A DNA stretch of 64,000 bases, taken from contig NC_015573.1 in the NCBI RefSeq assembly GCF_000214705.1, forward strand, positions 2,363,001 to 2,427,000, read 5' to 3'. Every line of letters begins with the position of its first letter. Position 1 is the stretch's first letter. Position numbers and translations under genes: made by a program. Positions 6,584 through 61,703 of this stretch are shown piece by piece. Source of the stretch: Desulfofundulus kuznetsovii DSM 6115 (lineage in GTDB: Bacteria; Bacillota; Desulfotomaculia; Desulfotomaculales; Desulfovirgulaceae). Below the pieces are notes generated by a model, which was not told the origin of the DNA, searched no databases, and worked only from the letters and a program-made list of their open reading frames with translations.

Positions 6584-7699
6584 CTAAAGTACCTCGCGCA
6601 GTGCTTCCAGGAGGCGCAAGTTTTCCTTGCGCCTCCTTACGGCAACTCGAATGTATCCCTCCGACAGGCCGGGAAAGTTGGCACAGTTACGCACCAGGAT
6701 TCCCCGGCGTCCCAGTTGGCGGACCAGTTCCCCCGCCGTAAAGCGAGTGTTAGTTATATCCACCAGCAAGAAATTGGCCGCTCCGGGGAAAGGACGCAGA
6801 CCGGGCAAAGAGGAAAGTTCCCGGAACAGGAATTCCCGCTCCCGGGCCACCATATCCCGGGTAGCTTCAATGTATTCCCTGTCCTGCAGTCCGGCCACTC
6901 CGGCCACCTGGGCCAGGGCATTGACGCTCCAGGGGTCCCTTGCCCGGTCCAGGGCCCGAACCACGTCGGGCCGTGCCGCCAGCACCCCCAGGCGCAAACC
7001 GGGAATGGCCAGAATCTTGGTCAAAGAATAAAGCAGGATTAAACGGGGGTGCCGGCCCGCCAGGAAAAGCAAAGTATGGCTTTGGGGATCGGCCACAAAG
7101 TCCATAAAAGCTTCGTCAATAATCACCATGGCCCTGTATGCCGCAGCCGCTTCCAGCAAAGCCTCCAGTTCCCGGCGGGGAACAAGCCCCCCGGTAGGGT
7201 TATTGGGGTTGCATAAAAAAAGAGCATCCACCTCCGGCAGTTGCCTTAACACTTCCTCCAGGGGGAAAGGAAAACCCGCGGAGGGATCCAGAAAAACATA
7301 ATTGACCTCCCCCCCGGCAGCCTTTACGGCCAGGGCATATTCGCTAAAGGTAGGGGCAGGAATGAGCACCCGGCGGAAGGAAAAAACCCGGGCCAGCAGG
7401 TAAATTAACTCGCTGGCGCCGTTTCCCACCAGAAGGCACCGGGTATCCACACCAAGGTGCTCCGCCAGGGCACTTTTTAACTCCCGGCAATCAGGATCCG
7501 GGTAATGGCAGATTTGCCAGAGATTAGCCTTAAGGGCTTCCAGAACTGACGGGCTGGGGCCCAGGGGATTGATATTGGCGCTAAAATCCAGAAAATCTTG
7601 CGGCGCAAGCCCGTATTCCATGGCCGCCCGCACCAGGTTGCCGCCATGGGGGGGAACGGACTGGTAGTCCTTTTCTATTTTATCATCAAGGCTCATCAT
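6584..7699 (-). CDS. cobD: L-threonine-O-3-phosphate decarboxylase
   Basis: About 371 residues, a PLP enzyme of fold type I resembling histidinol-phosphate aminotransferase. The start HGGNLVRAA... DFLDFSANINPLGPSP and the PLP-lysine region YSLTKILAIPGLRLG are typical of CobD, which makes (R)-1-amino-2-propanol phosphate, the linker of the nucleotide loop. I chose the ATG at 7699, with GCGGGGGTG five bases upstream, over a TTG at 7717 without a ribosome site; the next Met codon is also possible. The start lies 12 bases past the cobS stop. Confidence 0.9.
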   Translation of the reverse strand: MMSLDDKIEKDYQSVPPHGGNLVRAAMEYGLAPQDFLDFSANINPLGPSPSVLEALKANLWQICHYPDPDCRELKSALAEHLGVDTRCLLVGNGASELIYLLARVFSFRRVLIPAPTFSEYALAVKAAGGEVNYVFLDPSAGFPFPLEEVLRQLPEVDALFLCNPNNPTGGLVPRRELEALLEAAAAYRAMVIIDEAFMDFVADPQSHTLLFLAGRHPRLILLYSLTKILAIPGLRLGVLAARPDVVRALDRARDPWSVNALAQVAGVAGLQDREYIEATRDMVAREREFLFRELSSLPGLRPFPGAANFLLVDITNTRFTAGELVRQLGRRGILVRNCANFPGLSEGYIRVAVRRRKENLRLLEALREVL

Positions 7700-7710
7700 T
7701 TGCACCCCCG

Positions 7711-8466
7711 CTACCAAAAAGTTACTGGAAGGTAACTGCTTAAAGGATATGCCGCCAGCAGTAAGAACACTTCCAGAATTTCATTGATGGCCCCGTAGGT
7801 ATCCCCGGTTAGGCCGCCCAACCGGACGGTGAGATAGAAGCCAAGCCCGTGCACCAGTAAAAGGGAAACAAACAGCAGAACCAGGCCCACCGGTCCCCCC
7901 AGTACGGCTGCTACCAGGACAAAAAGGGAGGCCAGGGCCAGTTCACGCCCCCGGGTATGGCGGACCTGCAAAAGGCCAAGGCCCTGCGGCCGGGCATAGG
8001 GAAAGCGGGCAATGGCATAAACCATCCCCCAACGGCTGATGGCCGGGACGATCAACAGCAAGCGGGGCAAAACTTCCCGGGGCAGGCTGAAAAGCAGCGC
8101 AAACTTGAGCAACAATAAACAGGCCAGCCCGATCACGCCGAAGGCTCCCACCCGGCTGTCCCGCATAATTTCCAACATTTTTTCCCTGGACCGCCCGCTG
8201 AAGATGCCGTCCATGGTATCCATAAACCCGTCCAGGTGCAACCCCCCGCTGAATGCAACCATGCCCAGCACCAGAAGGGCGGCGGTGACTGCCGGCGGGA
8301 AGAAGGGAGAAAGACCAAAATAAAGGACTGTCCAGGCCGCGCCCAGGAAAAGGCCCACCAGGGGGAAAAACACGGGGGCCCGCCCGTAGGCCAGCTCATC
8401 AAACTCACCCCGGTAAACGTAAAAACGGGTCAGAAATTGCAGGGCCATGGCCAGGGTTTTCAGCAT
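7711..8466 (-). CDS. cobS: adenosylcobinamide-GDP ribazoletransferase
   Basis: A 251-residue integral membrane enzyme that joins adenosylcobinamide-GDP and alpha-ribazole(-phosphate). The first residues (LKTLAMALQFLTRFYV) and the acidic stretch GLHLDGFMDTMDGIFSGRSREKMLEIMRDS, with its metal-binding Asp residues, are family hallmarks. Several membrane spans follow. The gene overlaps the end of cbiA by seven bases, a sign of translational coupling. Confidence 0.93.
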   Translation of the reverse strand: MLKTLAMALQFLTRFYVYRGEFDELAYGRAPVFFPLVGLFLGAAWTVLYFGLSPFFPPAVTAALLVLGMVAFSGGLHLDGFMDTMDGIFSGRSREKMLEIMRDSRVGAFGVIGLACLLLLKFALLFSLPREVLPRLLLIVPAISRWGMVYAIARFPYARPQGLGLLQVRHTRGRELALASLFVLVAAVLGGPVGLVLLFVSLLLVHGLGFYLTVRLGGLTGDTYGAINEILEVFLLLAAYPLSSYLPVTFW

Positions 8467-13255: not shown

Positions 13256-13329
13256 AAACTTGTGCCAGGCCAGTCCCTAGCCCCGAACGACGCCATGCCC
13301 CTTTGCTCACGAAGGGGTCAAAGGCACCC

Positions 13330-13480
13330 GCAGGCAGGTATCCTGGCTCCCGGATCATCGCCTGCCCCACGCCTTCCCTGGCGGTGGCATTGCAGGGCTG
13401 CTTCCCGGTTACAGTGGCGGAGACCGCTCAGGACTTTCACCTGATTCCCTATTCTCCCCTTTGGGGCACCTGCGGGCTGG
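13330..13480 (-). ncRNA. cobalamin (B12) riboswitch
   Basis: Read on the minus strand this is a near-textbook cobalamin aptamer: GGGAATCAGGTGAAAGTCC, then CGGTCTCCGCCACTG (plus 13412-13426), GGGAAGGCGTGGGGCAGGCG, and the B12 box GAGCCAGGATACCTGCC (plus 13333-13349). The closing helix P1 is GCAGGT (13468-13473) with ACCTGC (13334-13339). A terminator stem follows at 13223-13255. It precedes cobU and should switch off cobU-cobC when adenosylcobalamin is plentiful. Together aptamer and terminator fill the gap between the DUF3842 gene and cobU. Confidence 0.96.
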
Positions 13481-13532
13481 ATAATCACTTTGTTGGCTAA
13501 TTCGCTATTTTAAAAGAAAATCCTCTTCACAG

Positions 13533-53287: not shown

Positions 53288-54114
53288 GCCGCACACCCCC
53301 TCTCTTCCGGGTTGGCGACTTCCCAGATCCTTTCCAGCACTTCCTCGACCTCGCAGAGCACTTTCATTACTAGTTTGAGCGCCTGTTTCGGCTCGCCGCC
53401 GGCGCAGGCTTTGATGTACTGCCACCCGTGCCAGGCATATCCGGTATAGCCGTAGATCTCGCAGAGGGTACAGGCCACTGTCTCGGCGACCACTTCCTGT
53501 ACCGGATCCTGGCCTCCCACCAGCGGGCGGATGGTGTTATGCACCGCGTGCGCCAACTCGTGGAAATACGTTTTGACGTCGTGAGTGTGCAGGTTGATCC
53601 TTTTAAGTCCGGGCTGGAAACTGCCGTAACAGCTGCCATCACCGGGGGCGTATTTGACTTTGATGCCCATCCTGGTCGCTACGTCGAAAAGCGGCGGTAG
53701 TTCCGGAGGGGCATAGTCCACTTCCGGCAGCGGTTCGCCTTCCGTATCCTCCAGGCGGAACACCGGTATAAACCGGAAACCCACAATCACAGGGCGTTCT
53801 TCTTCCCGCTCCTCGCCCGTCTCGGGGTCCTGTATTTTGACCTTCCTGGTTTTGGTCAGCGGAGCGAGGATGTGGAACGCTTTCGCGCCCTTTTTAACGT
53901 GCCGCCCTACTTCTTCCCACTGCCTGTAACCCCTGGCGTCCTCGGTCCCGGCCAGGTACATCAGCAGGCGGTTACCCAGGCTCCATTTGTCAGACGGCCT
54001 TTCATCACCCGCCTGGCGCCGTATCATCGTCCGGGCCACCGCCGGCGGCAGGTTGCCACTTTCGAACATTGACAGCAGCTTTTCAAGCGCTTCGCGCAAT
54101 CTTTCTTCTTTCAT
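53284..54114 (-). CDS. ArdC-like antirestriction/zincin protein
   Basis: A 276-residue protein from the ATG at 54114. The N-terminal ssDNA-binding-like domain (DKWSLGNRLLMYLAGTEDAR, YRQWEEVGRHVKKGAKAFHI) is as in ArdC, and the C-terminal half has a zinc metallopeptidase HExxH (TYFHELAHAVHNTI) with EVVAETVACTLCEIYGY as a likely third ligand. ArdC protects incoming conjugative DNA. It is translated from a hairpin-spaced ribosome site. Confidence 0.82.
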   Translation of the reverse strand: MKEERLREALEKLLSMFESGNLPPAVARTMIRRQAGDERPSDKWSLGNRLLMYLAGTEDARGYRQWEEVGRHVKKGAKAFHILAPLTKTRKVKIQDPETGEEREEERPVIVGFRFIPVFRLEDTEGEPLPEVDYAPPELPPLFDVATRMGIKVKYAPGDGSCYGSFQPGLKRINLHTHDVKTYFHELAHAVHNTIRPLVGGQDPVQEVVAETVACTLCEIYGYTGYAWHGWQYIKACAGGEPKQALKLVMKVLCEVEEVLERIWEVANPEERGCAA

Positions 54115-54119
54115 GATCC

Positions 54120-54183
54120 GGGGCGGACCCTTCCGGCCCGCCCCATTCCCTCCTTTCTGGAAATGGTTTGGGCCGGAAGGCCC
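54120..54183 (-). promoter_or_regulatory. hairpin-spaced ribosome site before the ArdC-like gene
   Basis: In gene direction: H2 GGGCC-TTCC-GGCCC (54170-54183), Shine-Dalgarno AAAGGAGGG (54148-54156), three bases, H1 GGGGCGG...CCGCCCC (54120-54144), then GGATC and ATG. Folding H1 leaves eight bases between Shine-Dalgarno and ATG. No other ribosome site is near this ATG, which makes this the cleanest case. Confidence 0.6.
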
Positions 54184-55587: not shown

Positions 55588-56160
55588 CTAGCCGGCAATC
55601 TCGACGCTTATCGCGAAGAGTTTGTCGTCGCCCATCGGCCGGTACTTAATCTTTGCTTGTTTGCCCGAGGACCCCAGCAGGGCCTGGCCGTTACCGTTCT
55701 TGGCGCAGATCTTATATTCCGCACCGTCTCCGGTAACCCCAATCGCCCAGATGGTACTTTCACTTTTTCCGGGCTTTACCTCTTTAATGGCAAAAGTATC
55801 AACCTTCAGCTCTTCCTGATCTGTGCTATTTCCCCTGCGGGATTCATTTTCGTCTCCTTGTGCCGATTTCTGCTCACCTTTTACCAGCGCCGCCAGCACC
55901 GCCTGCGCGTCGTCCGCTCTGCCCGCACCGATGAGCGCCGACAGCAGGTTGATGGTCGCCACGGCGGCCGTCTGGCGGGAGCGTAACCATTCCAATTCCC
56001 GGTCGATGTTCGCCAGGTTGTCCCTGACGGCCCGGAGGGCTTCTTCGTCCCCGCCCTGGGAAAGTTTCTTTTCCAGGTCCGCCCTGGCGACCATTATGTC
56101 GCGTATTACCGTCGGTATCTCGTTAACTTCCTTCACCAGCTTGACCAGCATTTCTTTCAT
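55588..56160 (-). CDS. uncharacterised two-part element protein
   Basis: A 190-residue protein from the ATG at 56160. The first half is helical or coiled-coil (MKEMLVKLVKEVNEIPTVIR, VRDNLANIDRELEWLRSRQT), then an acidic linker, then a beta-rich C-terminal domain (FAIKEVKPGKSESTIWAIGV, GQALLGSSGKQAKIKYRPMG) that could be an OB-like fold. No family is recognised. Its ribosome site is hairpin-spaced. Confidence 0.65.
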   Translation of the reverse strand: MKEMLVKLVKEVNEIPTVIRDIMVARADLEKKLSQGGDEEALRAVRDNLANIDRELEWLRSRQTAAVATINLLSALIGAGRADDAQAVLAALVKGEQKSAQGDENESRRGNSTDQEELKVDTFAIKEVKPGKSESTIWAIGVTGDGAEYKICAKNGNGQALLGSSGKQAKIKYRPMGDDKLFAISVEIAG

Positions 56161-56166
56161 GCTTCC

Positions 56167-56239
56167 GGGCTGCGGGCCGTCCGGCCCGCGCCCAATCACC
56201 TCCCTGGAAATGATGATTGGTTTTGCGGGCCGGCGGCCC
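56167..56239 (-). promoter_or_regulatory. hairpin-spaced ribosome site before the 190-residue protein
   Basis: In gene direction: H2 GGGCC-GCC-GGCCC (56227-56239), Shine-Dalgarno AGGGAGGTG (56197-56205), then H1, GGGC-GCGGGCC...GGCCCGC-A-GCCC (56167-56193, stem of 11 pairs with one bulge), six bases, ATG. The layout matches 53026-53088 although the stem sequence differs. Confidence 0.55.
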
Positions 56240-56560: not shown

Positions 56561-56905
56561 TTATTTCCGGGGCGATTTGAGAGTCCGGTGATCGTCTTCC
56601 CAGACATCCGGATCCGGTTCGTAGGCTGTAACCAGTATTACGGTTTTCCCGTGAAGCGCCACGACCAGATGGAGGATTCGACCACCGCTCCCACGGCCCA
56701 TAACCACTCTCACGGGGTCCGGATTGCTTCCGTACATTCCCGGCGCATGGCCCTGGATGATTTCTTCGTTATTTATAACGTTATACACTTCTTCCACCGT
56801 TATACCTCTTGCTTTGATCCGCTTCCGGCAATGCCTGGAAAACCGGATACGGGCACGGCGAATGCGGACCATTTCTTCCCGCCATCGTTCTTTGCCGTCA
56901 TACAT
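56561..56905 (-). CDS. DUF4258-family toxin
   Basis: A 114-residue protein: IRFSRHCRKRIKARGITVEE, GSNPDPVRVVMGRGSGGRIL, HLVVALHGKTVILVTAYEPD. This is the DUF4258 pattern (start FSxHxxxRxxxRGI, end VITxYxP), RelE-like toxins. It stands 16 bases before the YgiT-type antitoxin gene. The ATG has GGAGG 11 bases upstream. Confidence 0.8.
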   Translation of the reverse strand: MYDGKERWREEMVRIRRARIRFSRHCRKRIKARGITVEEVYNVINNEEIIQGHAPGMYGSNPDPVRVVMGRGSGGRILHLVVALHGKTVILVTAYEPDPDVWEDDHRTLKSPRK

Positions 56906-56994
56906 TTCCCGGGCTGCCTCCTTTCATTCGAAATTGAAGCGCCCGGGTTTTTCTCCCGCGGGCGCCCGTTTCCAACGCCCGCGGAGGGCTTGCA

Positions 56995-57790
56995 AAAAAC
57001 AGAAAAACACTTTAACAGAGCAAGCAACTGCTTCTTGCTTTCGTCCGCCAAAGTGTCTTTCTTTGCTGCTAATATTCCGTTTCTTGCGCACGCCAATGAG
57101 GCGTGCATATCAATGCGCAGCAGTTCCTTTTCAAACCGGCCAAAACCGCTGCCTTCTTCCGTACGCCGACCGGTGGCGTACTTATCTCGCGTACGTCCCA
57201 GTGTTTGGAACTCCTGGGCCGCTAACGCGACACCGCCCATTGATTTGAGGACGACCACTCCTCACCGCTTGTAGCGCCGCTGGGTCGGGCCTTCCCGGTC
57301 TGCGGCGGTTAGCCCATTTCATGTCGAGGTCGGCCATACCTCTCATCCAACTTTCAACGCTAATGGAGGGGGGCAACCTCCGACCTATAGCGCTTGGGAC
57401 GTTTCGGTTACAAGGGGTTACTACGGTTGCCTTCGGAAGAGTCCACCTTCCTACCGCTGTGGCCTAATGCCACTCACCCCAGGGGCCGGATACAGCTCCG
57501 GCCAGGCAAGGTACCCTGCCGCTCATCGCCGTGCAGTCGTACCGTTTTGCCCATTCCTTACGGCTGGGTCCCGCCGCCTGCGTCTGCTCATCGCCGTGAC
57601 GCAGGTCCGGTACGTCTGCTCATCGCCGTGACGCACCTGCCCCGAGAGTACACCCTGCTCATCGCGAGGAATTTTTCCCGGAGCACTTCTTGCCAGTGAA
57701 TTCGCCCGCTCATCGCTGGCGACCACTCCGGGGCTTCCACCCGTATCAAGAGAAAGGCGTCCTGATAGGCAAGAAGTTTAAAACTTGTGT
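56995..57790 (-). ncRNA. putative large structured noncoding RNA
   Basis: The 927-base gap 56906-57832 lacks a credible gene but is packed with helices. Five hairpins share the apical word GCGATGAGC on the minus strand (57521-57529, 57586-57594, 57618-57626, 57657-57665, 57708-57716), on different stems: CTGC/GCAG, TGCGTC/GACGCA, CGTC/GACG within GCAGGT/ACCTGC, CCTC/GGG, TCGCC/GGGCGA within CCGGAG/CTCCGG. Further helices: GGCCGG...CCGGCC, GTGGC...GGCCAC, CGCTA-GGAGG...CCTCC-TAGCG, GCCGC...GCGGC, GTACGCC...GGCGTAC, GCACGCC...GGCGTGC, ACACTTT...AAAGTGT. Strand is inferred: a -35-like TTGACA (57831-57836) and the neighbours point to minus. Confidence 0.5.
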
Positions 57791-57832
57791 CTATATCCTT
57801 AACCCAAAGGTTAACAGGTTACCATATGGCTG

Positions 57833-58495
57833 TCAAGTGGTTTTCTGAAAAATTTTCCGGCGCAGTTCACCCGGCGCAAAGAGCAGTTCGTCCGCGGTGT
57901 ACATTTTGCCCGGCGGGGTGAGGATTTTTCCTTCCCGGAGGGTCGGGAAAATATATACGTCGGCATTCGGAACAGGGTTTTCCTCCCGGCGGGGAGCGTC
58001 AATGATCCATTGAGTTGCATTATCAGCAACGGTAAAACGCATTTCTGCCATAACAACGCTTTTCCCGTTCCTAACCACATGCCATTTAAAACCGGGCACT
58101 TCGTTCCTGGCCAGAGCATAGAAAAGCCCCAGCGCAGCCAGGCGGCAGGCTTCCTGGGCGTTTTTGGGCGGCCCGCCGTCGGCCGGAAACCAGAGACGGA
58201 ACTGCCCCTTGAATTGCCCTATTTCGGCAAATACGTTGACCCATCGGACCATTCCAGCCCACCACAGGCTGTTGAACGCCGAACCAGCTACTTTACGGTG
58301 ACAGGACAACGCGGTGGCCGCCGCGCCGGTAGTCATTGCCGTGGCTTCAGCCAGCATTTCCATTAGTTCGAAGGCTCTACCGGTATAATCTATGGATTCG
58401 TTGTCCCCCCGCTTGTATTGAGGCATGCCCAGGGCAATCCCTTTTGCGTAATTAATACCTTTGCTCGGAGGCCCGTTCCCTGCGTTTTCTTGCAC
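57833..58495 (-). CDS. winged-helix-like element protein
   Basis: A 220-residue protein from a GTG with GGAAGGAGG upstream. The first half looks like a winged helix (AFELMEMLAEATAMTTGAAA, LSCHRKVAGSAFNSLWWAGM); the second half is beta-rich (FKWHVVRNGKSVVMAEMRFT). It overlaps the S1-domain gene by 44 bases and lies just upstream of the structured RNA region on the same strand. No named family; DNA binding is inference. Confidence 0.6.
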   Translation of the reverse strand: MQENAGNGPPSKGINYAKGIALGMPQYKRGDNESIDYTGRAFELMEMLAEATAMTTGAAATALSCHRKVAGSAFNSLWWAGMVRWVNVFAEIGQFKGQFRLWFPADGGPPKNAQEACRLAALGLFYALARNEVPGFKWHVVRNGKSVVMAEMRFTVADNATQWIIDAPRREENPVPNADVYIFPTLREGKILTPPGKMYTADELLFAPGELRRKIFQKTT

Positions 58496-59309
58496 GTTGC
58501 CGCCTCCTTCCCCGGATTCTTTCTTCGTCCCAGCGTACCAGGTGGAGCACTCTGTTGTCCGGATCGTACCTCTGCACCTGGTATTTCACGGTTTCCCCAA
58601 TCTTTACCTGTTCGCTCTTAGGGTATGGGGCGATACCGACCAAACCGGGTTTCGTTTGAACGAAGGCGATATTATCTTTAATTTGAATTATTTTCCCGGT
58701 TACCATCTCGCCACGGACATATTCTCCGGGTTGCCACGGGTCTATCATTGAAATGTCAATTCTCTTTGCCGCTTTGTCGATTCCGGTCACTTGCACTTTT
58801 ACGAATTGTCCCGTGGGATACTGTACTTCAACGGGTACTGCCCGGGACAACTTGATTTCCCTCCGGGGTATCCTGACTAATACGCCACCACCGATGTCCA
58901 CAACAATGCCACTCGGAGAGGACGCCCTGACCAGCGCAAGCAGTTGCTCCGATTCTTCCAACTGTTCAATCATACGGCGCAGATTTTCTTCCACGACCTC
59001 TTTTCTGGTAAGGGCGACTATGCTGTTTTTTCGGTCGATTCCCTTGATTTTCGCCGCCACAACTTGATGTTTGAACCAGTTCATTGATGTACCTTCCGGA
59101 AGTCCGCTTTCCGATTCGGGAATTAACCCAACGATACCGAACAAGTCTTCCTGCTCTCCAAAGCTGACCTCCCAGGTGTAACCATGGCCGTTAATTGACC
59201 TTACGTTGACTATGGTTACGTTCAAGATTTGTTCCTTGTCCCTTGCCGTGTAAAGAGCGTCCCAGGGATCTATATCCCTGTAATTGGTTCCTTCCGGCGC
59301 AAAACGCAT
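58452..59309 (-). CDS. S1-domain RNA-binding protein
   Basis: A 285-residue protein with S1-type OB repeats: an N-terminal one (NVTIVNVRSINGHGYTWEVS, VVAAKIKGIDRKNSIVALTR), a middle one (ASSPSGIVVDIGGGVLVRIP) and a C-terminal one (VRGEMVTGKIIQIKDNIAFV, QTKPGLVGIAPYPKSEQVKI), ending in a very basic tail (RIRGRRRQRARKRRERASEQ). Resembles ribosomal protein S1 paralogues. Such proteins bind single-stranded RNA. Its place two genes upstream of the structured RNA is notable. ATG with ACAGGAGGG upstream. Confidence 0.82.
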   Translation of the reverse strand: MRFAPEGTNYRDIDPWDALYTARDKEQILNVTIVNVRSINGHGYTWEVSFGEQEDLFGIVGLIPESESGLPEGTSMNWFKHQVVAAKIKGIDRKNSIVALTRKEVVEENLRRMIEQLEESEQLLALVRASSPSGIVVDIGGGVLVRIPRREIKLSRAVPVEVQYPTGQFVKVQVTGIDKAAKRIDISMIDPWQPGEYVRGEMVTGKIIQIKDNIAFVQTKPGLVGIAPYPKSEQVKIGETVKYQVQRYDPDNRVLHLVRWDEERIRGRRRQRARKRRERASEQRY

Positions 59310-59312
59310 GTC

Positions 59313-61703
59313 CTATCCCTCCTGTCGGTTTTTAAACTCGAATTCTATTTTGCCGCCTTCTCCCAGGACCAGGGCGGCTTCGAAGTCCTTGCCGGCCCTG
59401 GACTTAAAGCCCTTGATAACGCCGGTCCTGCCCTTCTGGAGCAGTTCTTTTGCCAGGTTGGCCGCAATCTTTTTCCCGGCGATCTCCTTCCAGATAACGA
59501 ATTTACAACCCTCCTTCCATCCCGCGCAGCCGTAGCCCTTCTTCCCCTCGATGACATCCTTGCCGCAGAGGGGACATTTGCCCAGGGCCTGGCCGGCGTG
59601 GTCGGCAAATTCGAAGTTGACTTTGCCGTCTTCCCCCAGGGTCAATATGGCGTCGAAACTCTTGCCGGCTTTGGATTTGAAGCCCTTAATTACGCCGGTT
59701 CTGCCTTTTTGGAGTAACTCCCGTGCTTGTTTGGCCGTAATCTTCTTTCCGGCGGTTTCCTTCCAGATGGCAAAGTTACATCCGTCTCTGTACCCGCTGC
59801 AGCCGTAGGATTTGGTATATTCCAGCACGTCACGTCCGCATAGAGGACACCTGCCCATCACCTCCTTCTGGTGTACCGCGCCGTTTGCTTCCTGTTCTTT
59901 TGCCATGGCCACCACCTCCACCGTGAAGTTTTTGAGGCCAACCAGCCACAACCGGGCATCATCCAGCCCCTCCTCTATACGCCGCAGCCCGTCTTCCCAT
60001 TGAGCGGTCAGTTCCACCGATTTCAGTTTTTCCGGCACCAGGTCTATCAGTGCTTCGCCCCGCGGGGTGGGCACCAGGGTTTTCTTGCGGCGCTCGATGT
60101 ATCCCCGCTTGATCAGCGTTTCGATGATTGCCGCCCTGGTGGCGGGTGTGCCGATGCCGCCGGCGGCCTTGAGGGTTTCGGCCATTTCCCTGTCGTCCAA
60201 AAGGCGGCCGGCATTTTCCATGGCCGCCAGAAGCGTGGCTTCGGTGTACCGTTTCGGGGGTTTCGTCTGCCGCTCGACAGCCCCCGCTTCTTCGACGCCG
60301 ACCGTCTCGCCCTCGGCCAGGGGCGGGAGCGGTTGTGATTCTCCGTCTTCGTCTTTCCCATCCTTTTCCTCCTTTTCTTCCGGCCCGTATACTGCTTTCC
60401 AGCCCGGCTCGATCTCTACCCGGCCTCTGGATATAAAAGTCTCGTCCCCGACTTCGGTGACCACGGCGGTTTCGTCGTAGACTGCCGGGGGATAAAACAT
60501 GGCCAGGAACCTCCGGACCACCAGATCATATACCTGTCGCTCCGCGGGGTTGAGGGCTGACGGGTCCGGAGTCACGTCCGTGGGGATGATGGCGTGGTGG
60601 TCCGTGACTCCGGCGTCGTCGATGTAACGTTTGCCCGGGAGCATTCCCGGCCTGATCCGGCGGATCAGTTCCCCGTATTCCGGGCATTTTTCCAGAGCGG
60701 CCAGGCGTTTTTGCAGGGTGTCCCGCGCCAATGCCTCCGTTAAATGGCGGCTGTCCGTCCTGGGATAGGTGATCAGTTTGTGTTTTTCGTAGAGGGCCTG
60801 GGCCGCGTCCAGGACCTTCTGAGCCGTCATTCCGTATTTCCGGTTGGCTTCTTTCTGCAGGTCGTTCAGGTTGAAGAGCAGGGGTGGGGCCTCCGTTTTA
60901 GTGCGTTTTTCAACCTGTGCCACCCTGCCGGAACCGGCGGCCAGGGCGGCCCGTACCAGTTCCTCTGCCCGTGATTTTTCTTTGATGCGGCTCTCGCCAC
61001 CCCTGAACCACCTGCCCCGGTAGGTGGCCCCGCCGCTTTTCTGGAAGGTGGCCCGGACCTCCCAGTAAGTCTCCGGCTTGAAATCCCGGATTTCCCTTTC
61101 CCGCTGCACCACCAGGGCCAGGGTGGGTGTCTGTACCCTGCCGACGGAGAGCAGGGTTTTGTGTTTCACCGAAAACGCCCGGGTGGCGTTGATCCCCACG
61201 ATCCAGTCGGCTTCGGCCCGGGCCCTGGCCGCCGCTGCCAGGTTGTCCAGTTCGCGGCCGTCACGGAGTTTTTTGAAGGCCTCCCGGATTGCGGAGGGGG
61301 TGGCCTCCGAAAGCCACAGGCGTTTGACCGGTTTTCTGCAGCCGCACCACTCGTATATGCGGCGGAAGATCAGTTCCCCCTCACGCCCCGCGTCACAGGC
61401 GTTGATTACTTCCGCCACGTCCGCCGAATTGAGCAGTTGTTTCAGGATTTTGAGCTGCTTCGCACCACTCCTGATTGGATGCAGTTTGAACTCCTCCGGG
61501 ATAATGGGTAACGGTTCAAGAGTCCACTTGACGAAGGCCGGGTCGTATTCGTGCGCGTCGGCCAGTTCCAGGAGGTGGCCCAGCGCCCAGGAGATGACCA
61601 GACGGTCGTTCTCCAGGTAGCCGTCTTTTTGCGCGAATTTCCCCAGGGCGGAGGCAATGTCGCGGGCGACGGACGGTTTCTCGGCTATAACCAGCTTGCG
61701 CAA
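59313..61703 (-). CDS. topB: DNA topoisomerase III
   Basis: A 796-residue type IA topoisomerase. TOPRIM motif LVIAEKPSVARDIASALGKF with NACDAGREGELIFRRIYEW; the active Tyr is in LITYPRTDSRHL; GRVQTPTLALVVQRE follows the IA pattern. The C-terminus has two near-identical zinc-ribbon/topoisomerase repeats (MGRCPLCGRDVLEYTKSYGC and LGKCPLCGKDVIEGKKGYGC, each followed by GRTGVIKGFKS). TopB next to TraG-type genes is a standard marker of conjugative elements. The start is TTG with AAGGGGGAA upstream. Confidence 0.95.
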   Translation of the reverse strand: MRKLVIAEKPSVARDIASALGKFAQKDGYLENDRLVISWALGHLLELADAHEYDPAFVKWTLEPLPIIPEEFKLHPIRSGAKQLKILKQLLNSADVAEVINACDAGREGELIFRRIYEWCGCRKPVKRLWLSEATPSAIREAFKKLRDGRELDNLAAAARARAEADWIVGINATRAFSVKHKTLLSVGRVQTPTLALVVQREREIRDFKPETYWEVRATFQKSGGATYRGRWFRGGESRIKEKSRAEELVRAALAAGSGRVAQVEKRTKTEAPPLLFNLNDLQKEANRKYGMTAQKVLDAAQALYEKHKLITYPRTDSRHLTEALARDTLQKRLAALEKCPEYGELIRRIRPGMLPGKRYIDDAGVTDHHAIIPTDVTPDPSALNPAERQVYDLVVRRFLAMFYPPAVYDETAVVTEVGDETFISRGRVEIEPGWKAVYGPEEKEEKDGKDEDGESQPLPPLAEGETVGVEEAGAVERQTKPPKRYTEATLLAAMENAGRLLDDREMAETLKAAGGIGTPATRAAIIETLIKRGYIERRKKTLVPTPRGEALIDLVPEKLKSVELTAQWEDGLRRIEEGLDDARLWLVGLKNFTVEVVAMAKEQEANGAVHQKEVMGRCPLCGRDVLEYTKSYGCSGYRDGCNFAIWKETAGKKITAKQARELLQKGRTGVIKGFKSKAGKSFDAILTLGEDGKVNFEFADHAGQALGKCPLCGKDVIEGKKGYGCAGWKEGCKFVIWKEIAGKKIAANLAKELLQKGRTGVIKGFKSRAGKDFEAALVLGEGGKIEFEFKNRQEG

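Follow-up and report, generated by a model that had tools for sequence, protein, structure and literature searches.

A large structured RNA with concertedly changing GN(N)RA loops, carried by conjugative elements of spore-forming bacteria

What is encoded by a stretch of about 800 nucleotides in the genome of Desulfofundulus kuznetsovii DSM 6115, in which a single loop word recurs on five different hairpins? To our knowledge, very few bacterial RNAs reach such size and complexity, and most of these have an unsolved function. Here we report that the stretch belongs to a previously uncatalogued class of RNA carried by conjugative elements of spore-forming bacteria. The window analysed comprises 64,000 nucleotides (RefSeq assembly GCF_000214705.1, contig NC_015573.1, positions 2,363,001 to 2,427,000), and all positions given without a locus name refer to it.

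The word GCGATGAGC is present exactly five times on the minus strand of the window and never on the plus strand, and all copies lie within a span of less than 200 bases (Table 1). By chance, 0.38 copies are expected in the window, and five copies were reached in none of the shuffles; when the 240-nt region was dinucleotide-shuffled 3000 times, the commonest 9-mer was seen once or twice in all but five shuffles. In the minus-strand fold, each copy forms the tip of a hairpin with a stem of its own, and all five stems are paired (UCGCC/GGCGA, UCCU/AGGG, and those listed for h3, h4 and h5). The original prediction, made from the sequence alone, had proposed five shared loops on differing stems that still pair, which word count, shuffles and fold bear out. 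The recurrence of the shared word stands, but the loop itself had to be redrawn as the pentaloop GAUGA closed by two G-C pairs (GC-GAUGA-GC), and the extent first given for the RNA (56995-57790) was corrected to run on the minus strand from about 57800 (5' end) to about 56995 (3' end).

Table 1. Positions of the RNA, its parts and its neighbouring genes in the 64,000-nt window.
Feature	Position	Strand	Remarks
RNA gene	56995-57800	-	About 800 nt; start inferred from promoter, end from terminator
-35 box TTGACA	57831-57836	-	Overlaps stop codon of upstream gene; kept in homologous loci
-10 box TAACCT	57808-57813	-	17 bases past -35 box
Domain 1	57685-57776	-	Long-range helix CUUCUUGCC/GGCAAGAAG; two-sided changes in its helices (nine near relatives); contains the next three features
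Hairpin	57744-57767	-	
Hairpin	57729-57743	-	Conserved heptaloop UGGAAGC
Loop module h1	57708-57716	-	GC-GAUGA-GC
Domain 2	57639-57684	-	Helix GCUCCGGGA/UCUCGGGGC enclosing h2; conserved GGUGUAC
Loop module h2	57657-57665	-	Covariation model
Hairpin h3	57609-57637	-	GGUGCGUC/GACGUACC; loop module 57618-57626; covariation helices 4-6
Hairpin h4	57577-57605	-	CCUGCGUC/GACGCAGG; loop module 57586-57594; covariation helices 7-9
Conserved core	57547-57571	-	GGGACCC...GGGCAA; covariation helix 10 and alignment; possible CCGU/ACGG pseudoknot, in window-like group only
Hairpin h5	57510-57543	-	GGUAC..CUGC/GCAG..GUACC; loop module 57521-57529; covariation helices 11-13
3' domain	57061-57503	-	More helices, sequence less conserved; RNAalifold helices with two-sided changes
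Hairpin of 3' domain	57435-57451	-	Heptaloop GUGGACU
Intrinsic terminator	56995-57059	-	Long hairpin AAAGACACUUUGGC...AAAGUGU, then U run; fold -29.9 kcal/mol
First downstream gene, DUF4258	56561-56905	-	Variable cargo
220-aa protein	57833-58495	-	Upstream neighbour, no assigned family; conserved in 20 loci
S1-domain (RNA-binding) protein	58452-59309	-	PF00575, E 9e-11; candidate partner; in 20 of 28 RNA loci
Topoisomerase III-type gene (TopB)	59313-61703	-	PF01131, E 1e-130

The minus strand folded at -341 kcal/mol, compared with -297 ± 9.6 kcal/mol for shuffled sequences (z -4.6). The plus strand folds well too (z -4.1); since both strands beat their shuffles, folding alone cannot pick the strand, and homologs were needed. 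At the paired positions of the homologs, G·U pairs greatly outnumber A·C combinations (81 vs 21), which identifies the minus-strand RNA as the selected form and led to the rejection of a plus-strand RNA. The same asymmetry speaks against a structure that acts in single-stranded DNA during transfer, whether as transfer origin, single-strand origin or promoter. Such a role would suit a conjugative element with genes for a coupling protein, SSB and ArdC nearby, but a conserved sigma70 promoter at the start and a terminator at the end are further points against it, and we regard it as very unlikely.

A nucleotide search of 60 related genomes yielded clear relatives with the same five hairpins on rewritten stems; in the divergent locus L016, four of the five loops now read GAAGA. 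The long-range helix of domain 1 is rewritten yet retained in the sequences of L016 and L011. A plain MAFFT alignment of 11 sequences contained 22 pairs changed on both sides and had a covariation score of 0.323 (0.190 ± 0.014 when shuffled). The covariance model built from this alignment found matches in 24 of the 113 genomes of the window's order and, once refined, in 25 of them, in five genomes of another family and in one of a further lineage. The homologs thus occupy about 30 genomes, six of them from two additional lineages within the phylum, and no further strong match came from two phylum-wide draws of 398 genomes. Under a 46-pair model, 91% of the cells were paired in 25 distinct homologs, whose alignment was fitted to the structure and is therefore biased towards it; two-sided changes occurred at 38 of the 46 pairs, with 243 doubly changed cells against 73.8 ± 8.7 in shuffles, and pairing fell to 27-44% when the partners were shifted by one to three columns. 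The result agrees with the plain MAFFT alignment and with an independent full-length RNAalifold run on nine near relatives, which placed about 30 helices over the entire molecule; the majority of these have one or more two-sided changes. The outer helix of domain 2 has two-sided changes at seven of its eight pairs (95.5% of cells paired), and the terminator stem has them at four of 15 pairs in the nine near relatives. Homologs with compensatory changes, for which a search had been suggested at the outset, therefore exist, and the locus encodes a large structured RNA whose structure is backed by covariation across about 30 loci.

Several members of the class differ from the RNA of the window. 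At locus L246 (about 7400-8200), the relative is far longer, with six or more GAUGA/GUUGA hairpins arranged in repeated modules, and its model score is weak (E 1e-5). Four loci (L238, L243, L244, L245) make up a sub-group in which the RNA is larger and differs in its 3' part and in its neighbours; the S1-domain and 220-aa genes are missing from this sub-group, and L243 and L244 have an integrase-like neighbour gene. Two RNA copies at separate places in one genome were encountered twice (L236 and L237, and L032 and L041, in genomes G056 and G001). Neither the window nor its homologs had a match among the phage and plasmid records searched. Three GCGAWGAGC words in a row were found at no fewer than 118 places in the genome collection and at 28 in the viral collection, and those screened were coding sequences or tandem repeats; a covariance search of 49 such loci returned weak matches alone, the best of them a tandem repeat (L177/L170). 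No supported homolog was found in viral contigs scanned for the loop together with GGTGTAC, and one model match (L211) was dropped, as it resembles coding sequence with one loop word.

Across the homologs, the loops fit the pattern GN(N)RA (GAUGA, GAAGA, GAAAA, GCUGA, GUCGA, GACGA, GAUAA, GAGGA) and, with few exceptions, are closed by two G-C or G·U pairs; their number varies from four to seven per RNA when L215 is included in the sequence reading. Two loop types within one RNA occur in L238, L241 and L248. Loop pairs within one RNA are identical in 59% of cases, compared with 26% after shuffling of the loops between RNAs (at most 35% in 2000 shuffles), in a test that ignores the relatedness of the loci. 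The change can be followed in two pairs of loci. In L234 and L240, which are 84% identical outside the loops and 60% inside, three loops changed together from GAAAA/GAAGA to GCUGA, and in L237 and L250 (86% outside, 72% inside) five loops changed from GAAGA to GUCGA/GACGA. The flanking proteins of these pairs are 41-80% identical, whereas the RNAs are 84-86% identical outside their loops, which indicates that the RNA is under strong constraint.

As judged from these alignments, the loci show four to seven hairpins in which two G-C pairs close a GN(N)RA loop; these loops change together while their stems compensate. The positional homology of the hairpins argues against simple recent duplication. 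Conserved stems under loops that are switched together suggest that all loops dock to the same partner, and a common partner is the most likely explanation of this pattern. Since locus L005 has mostly plain four-base loops such as GAGA, we infer that the pentaloops adopt the fold of a GNRA tetraloop, with the additional base flipped out. The pentaloops of phage boxB elements have a GNRA-like fold and are used for antitermination; they share with the loops described here the five-base length, the first G, the last A and the GNRA tetraloop that results from the loss of one base, as in L005. However, boxB is a single hairpin in the nut site that is read by the N peptide, whereas here four to seven loops belong to one large RNA.

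In 24 of 28 homologous loci, the first helix is directly preceded by a promoter of the form TTGAC[A/G]-17-TA, and an intrinsic terminator ends the molecule in most of the loci checked, giving a length of about 600-820 nt. Together with the G·U bias, the conserved promoter and terminator make it very likely that the locus is an independent gene for a 0.6-0.8-kb RNA with its own sigma70-type promoter and terminator. The open reading frames across the region had no protein-family match above the cut-off on either strand; short sub-threshold matches were all in frames that reach outside the region, and protein coding was rejected. Rfam contained no family for the RNA or its divergent relatives, and the models of ROOL, GOLLD, OLE and HEARO had no match in the window at the gathering score, in the region up to E=5 or, for the divergent homologs, up to E=1. 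A weak hit of an HDV-like ribozyme model at 57052-57119 (19.2 bits vs a gathering score of 44, E 0.65) is at chance level. Elsewhere in the window, at 13316-13488 (-), there is an ordinary cobalamin riboswitch (110 bits). The initial description of the stretch as a large ornate noncoding RNA on a mobile element, crossed by no convincing gene and assignable to no known class, is thus upheld by covariation, by promoter and terminator, by the conjugative context and by the lack of protein-family and Rfam matches even at permissive thresholds. The hosts of this RNA are not mentioned in two papers on new bacterial RNAs (PMC11109978, PMC8632094), in a search that lay mostly outside the subscription literature.

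The gene order from upstream to downstream is actin-like protein, topoisomerase III, S1-domain protein, 220-aa protein and RNA, followed by a small toxin-antitoxin-like pair, a 203-aa protein, ArdC-like protein, RadC, DUF3854 and type IV coupling protein. A large serine recombinase is encoded near the RNA locus, and there are no tRNA genes in the 64-kb window. Coupling protein, TopB, ArdC and RadC recur beside the RNA across loci, and the S1-domain and 220-aa genes lie upstream in 20 of 28 loci, most of these with the same gene order. The gene neighbourhoods show that the RNA occupies a fixed slot of what are predicted to be integrative and conjugative elements. The gene directly downstream is variable (DUF4258 + MqsA-like, PemK-like, or SSB) while the RNA stays constant, which argues against a leader or an antitoxin tied to that gene.

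As a cis-acting leader, the RNA would be a giant attenuator or antiterminator governing read-through into the downstream element genes. A co-directional gene does start about 30-100 nt past the terminator in the window and in many homologs, which leaves no room for another promoter, and the loops recall those of phage boxB. Besides the exchange of downstream genes, however, L235 and L241 have no gene directly after the RNA, the terminator hairpin is kept by two-sided changes, and no conserved anti-terminator pairing was seen; a leader therefore appears unlikely. Type III toxin-antitoxin pairs consist of a promoter, RNA repeats, a terminator and a toxin gene. The locus has the same order of parts, with a small toxin-like gene at its end, but the downstream proteins are not of the ToxN, CptN or TenpN families and change while the RNA stays, and the hairpins are unequal rather than tandem repeats, which leaves an antitoxin RNA highly improbable.

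Other structured features were seen in and around the slot. Between the RNA terminator and the next gene is a conserved leader (56905-56990, -) with the pairing CCGCGGGCG..CGCCCGCGG and, in its second part, CCCGGGC..AAAGGAGG..GCCCGGG around the ribosome site; its pairs appear to covary in L231, L232, L234 and L248, and it may be a translational switch. Ribosome-binding sites in the tips of long hairpins, e.g. AATCATCA..GGAGGTGATTGG, precede the 203-aa and ArdC-like genes (about 56160-56230 and 54110-54180, -), a style that recurs in L011, L013, L016 and L302-L304. Relatives of the S1 protein also occur in related elements that do not contain the RNA, and the protein is thus unsupported as an obligatory partner; one such region, with the S1 gene and no RNA, is located in the same genome (L293; G000:C1:1594000-1602500). 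In related elements that lack the RNA, the slot appears to be taken by different structured stretches, which have sigma70-type promoters, terminators or both: L301 2350-3040 (on the reverse strand), L013/L040, L302 3510-3790, L303 2400-2720 and L304 3050-3440. Those of L301 and L013 look mutually related and have the same terminator and downstream leader as the window RNA, those of L302 and L303 look like another class, and none in L301-L304 or L040 matched Rfam. It is as if the slot of the element held interchangeable large RNAs.

A resemblance to the large mobile-element RNAs GOLLD and ROOL had been noted at the start, and it holds as an analogy in size, ornateness and location on elements, but not as homology, since neither covariance model matched. 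ROOL (Rumen-Originating, Ornate, Large) is an ornate, free-standing RNA of about 520-660 nt on phages and on a megaplasmid of L. salivarius, where its deletion lowered the megaplasmid copy ratio (PMC5643018), and forms an octameric RNA cage (PMC12286853). The RNA described here (600-820 nt) is likewise ornate, free-standing and on mobile DNA, with no known protein partner. It differs from ROOL in the lack of any sequence match, in its location on a conjugative element instead of a phage tRNA island, and in its concerted repeated GN(N)RA loops, which are not described for ROOL in the accessible parts of these publications. GOLLD, often longer than 800 nt, is also ornate and element-borne, likewise has a better conserved and a more variable part, and assembles into a 14-mer cage through kissing loops and A-minor contacts (PMC12286853). 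It differs in host range and in context, as GOLLD is found at phage or prophage sites near tRNA genes and the neighbours of this RNA are conjugation genes. OLE, an ornate RNA of about 600 nt from Gram-positive anaerobes and extremophiles (PMC9723947), is a dimer in cryo-EM (PMC12286853); its covariance model gave no match, and OLE differs from this RNA, which sits in conjugative elements. The HEARO/omega-RNA group, which the original prediction had also named, fared less well. A guide RNA of an IscB/TnpB-like nuclease would be large, structured and carried by a mobile element, as this RNA is, but no such nuclease was detected among the flanking proteins scanned with Pfam and no HEARO match in Rfam, and we give this reading next to no credence.

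The RNA is probably a multivalent scaffold, in which identical loops on a conjugative-element RNA would dock one receptor in many copies. Its GN(N)RA loops would be plugs, each for one copy of a single hypothetical kind of receptor, and the range of four to seven loops per RNA is as expected of a multivalent array. The receptor could be other copies of the RNA, for which GOLLD and ROOL, whose cages consist of RNA only and are held together by A-minor contacts and kissing loops, are precedents (PMC12286853), or one protein, and we are divided about evenly between the two. If it were a protein, the S1-domain protein of the element would be the obvious candidate. The resulting particle would help to maintain or transfer the element.

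One half of this explanation, taken alone, amounts to a CsrB-like sponge or scaffold whose loops titrate one RNA-binding protein of host or element, with no self-assembly. Like CsrB and RsmZ, the RNA presents one loop motif on many hairpins; its repeated identical loops, unrelated stems and varying loop number would suit a sponge, concerted switching would track the binding protein, and the S1-domain gene lies next but one upstream, or slightly further, in 20 of 28 loci. However, the binding sites of CsrA are GGA motifs and not GN(N)RA, the S1 protein is found also without the RNA, no Rfam match links the RNA to this group, and the conserved, heavily folded core and 3' domain form a far larger architecture than a sponge needs. 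A sponge alone is thus possible but on the unlikely side. Within the multivalent scaffold, the two variable bases of GN(N)RA might form a specificity code that restricts the assembly of each element's RNA to copies of itself or to a cognate protein, an idea that we consider doubtful. If true, the cage or scaffold would act in transfer or maintenance, and concerted drift of the code would keep co-resident elements unmixed.

This study adds a class of about 30 aligned members, with a clear gene boundary and a home in conjugative elements, to the large RNAs of bacteria. The concerted switching of its loops is an evolutionary handle that predicts which nucleotides contact the partner, and makes this RNA a convenient model with which to address the role of large ornate RNAs of mobile elements.
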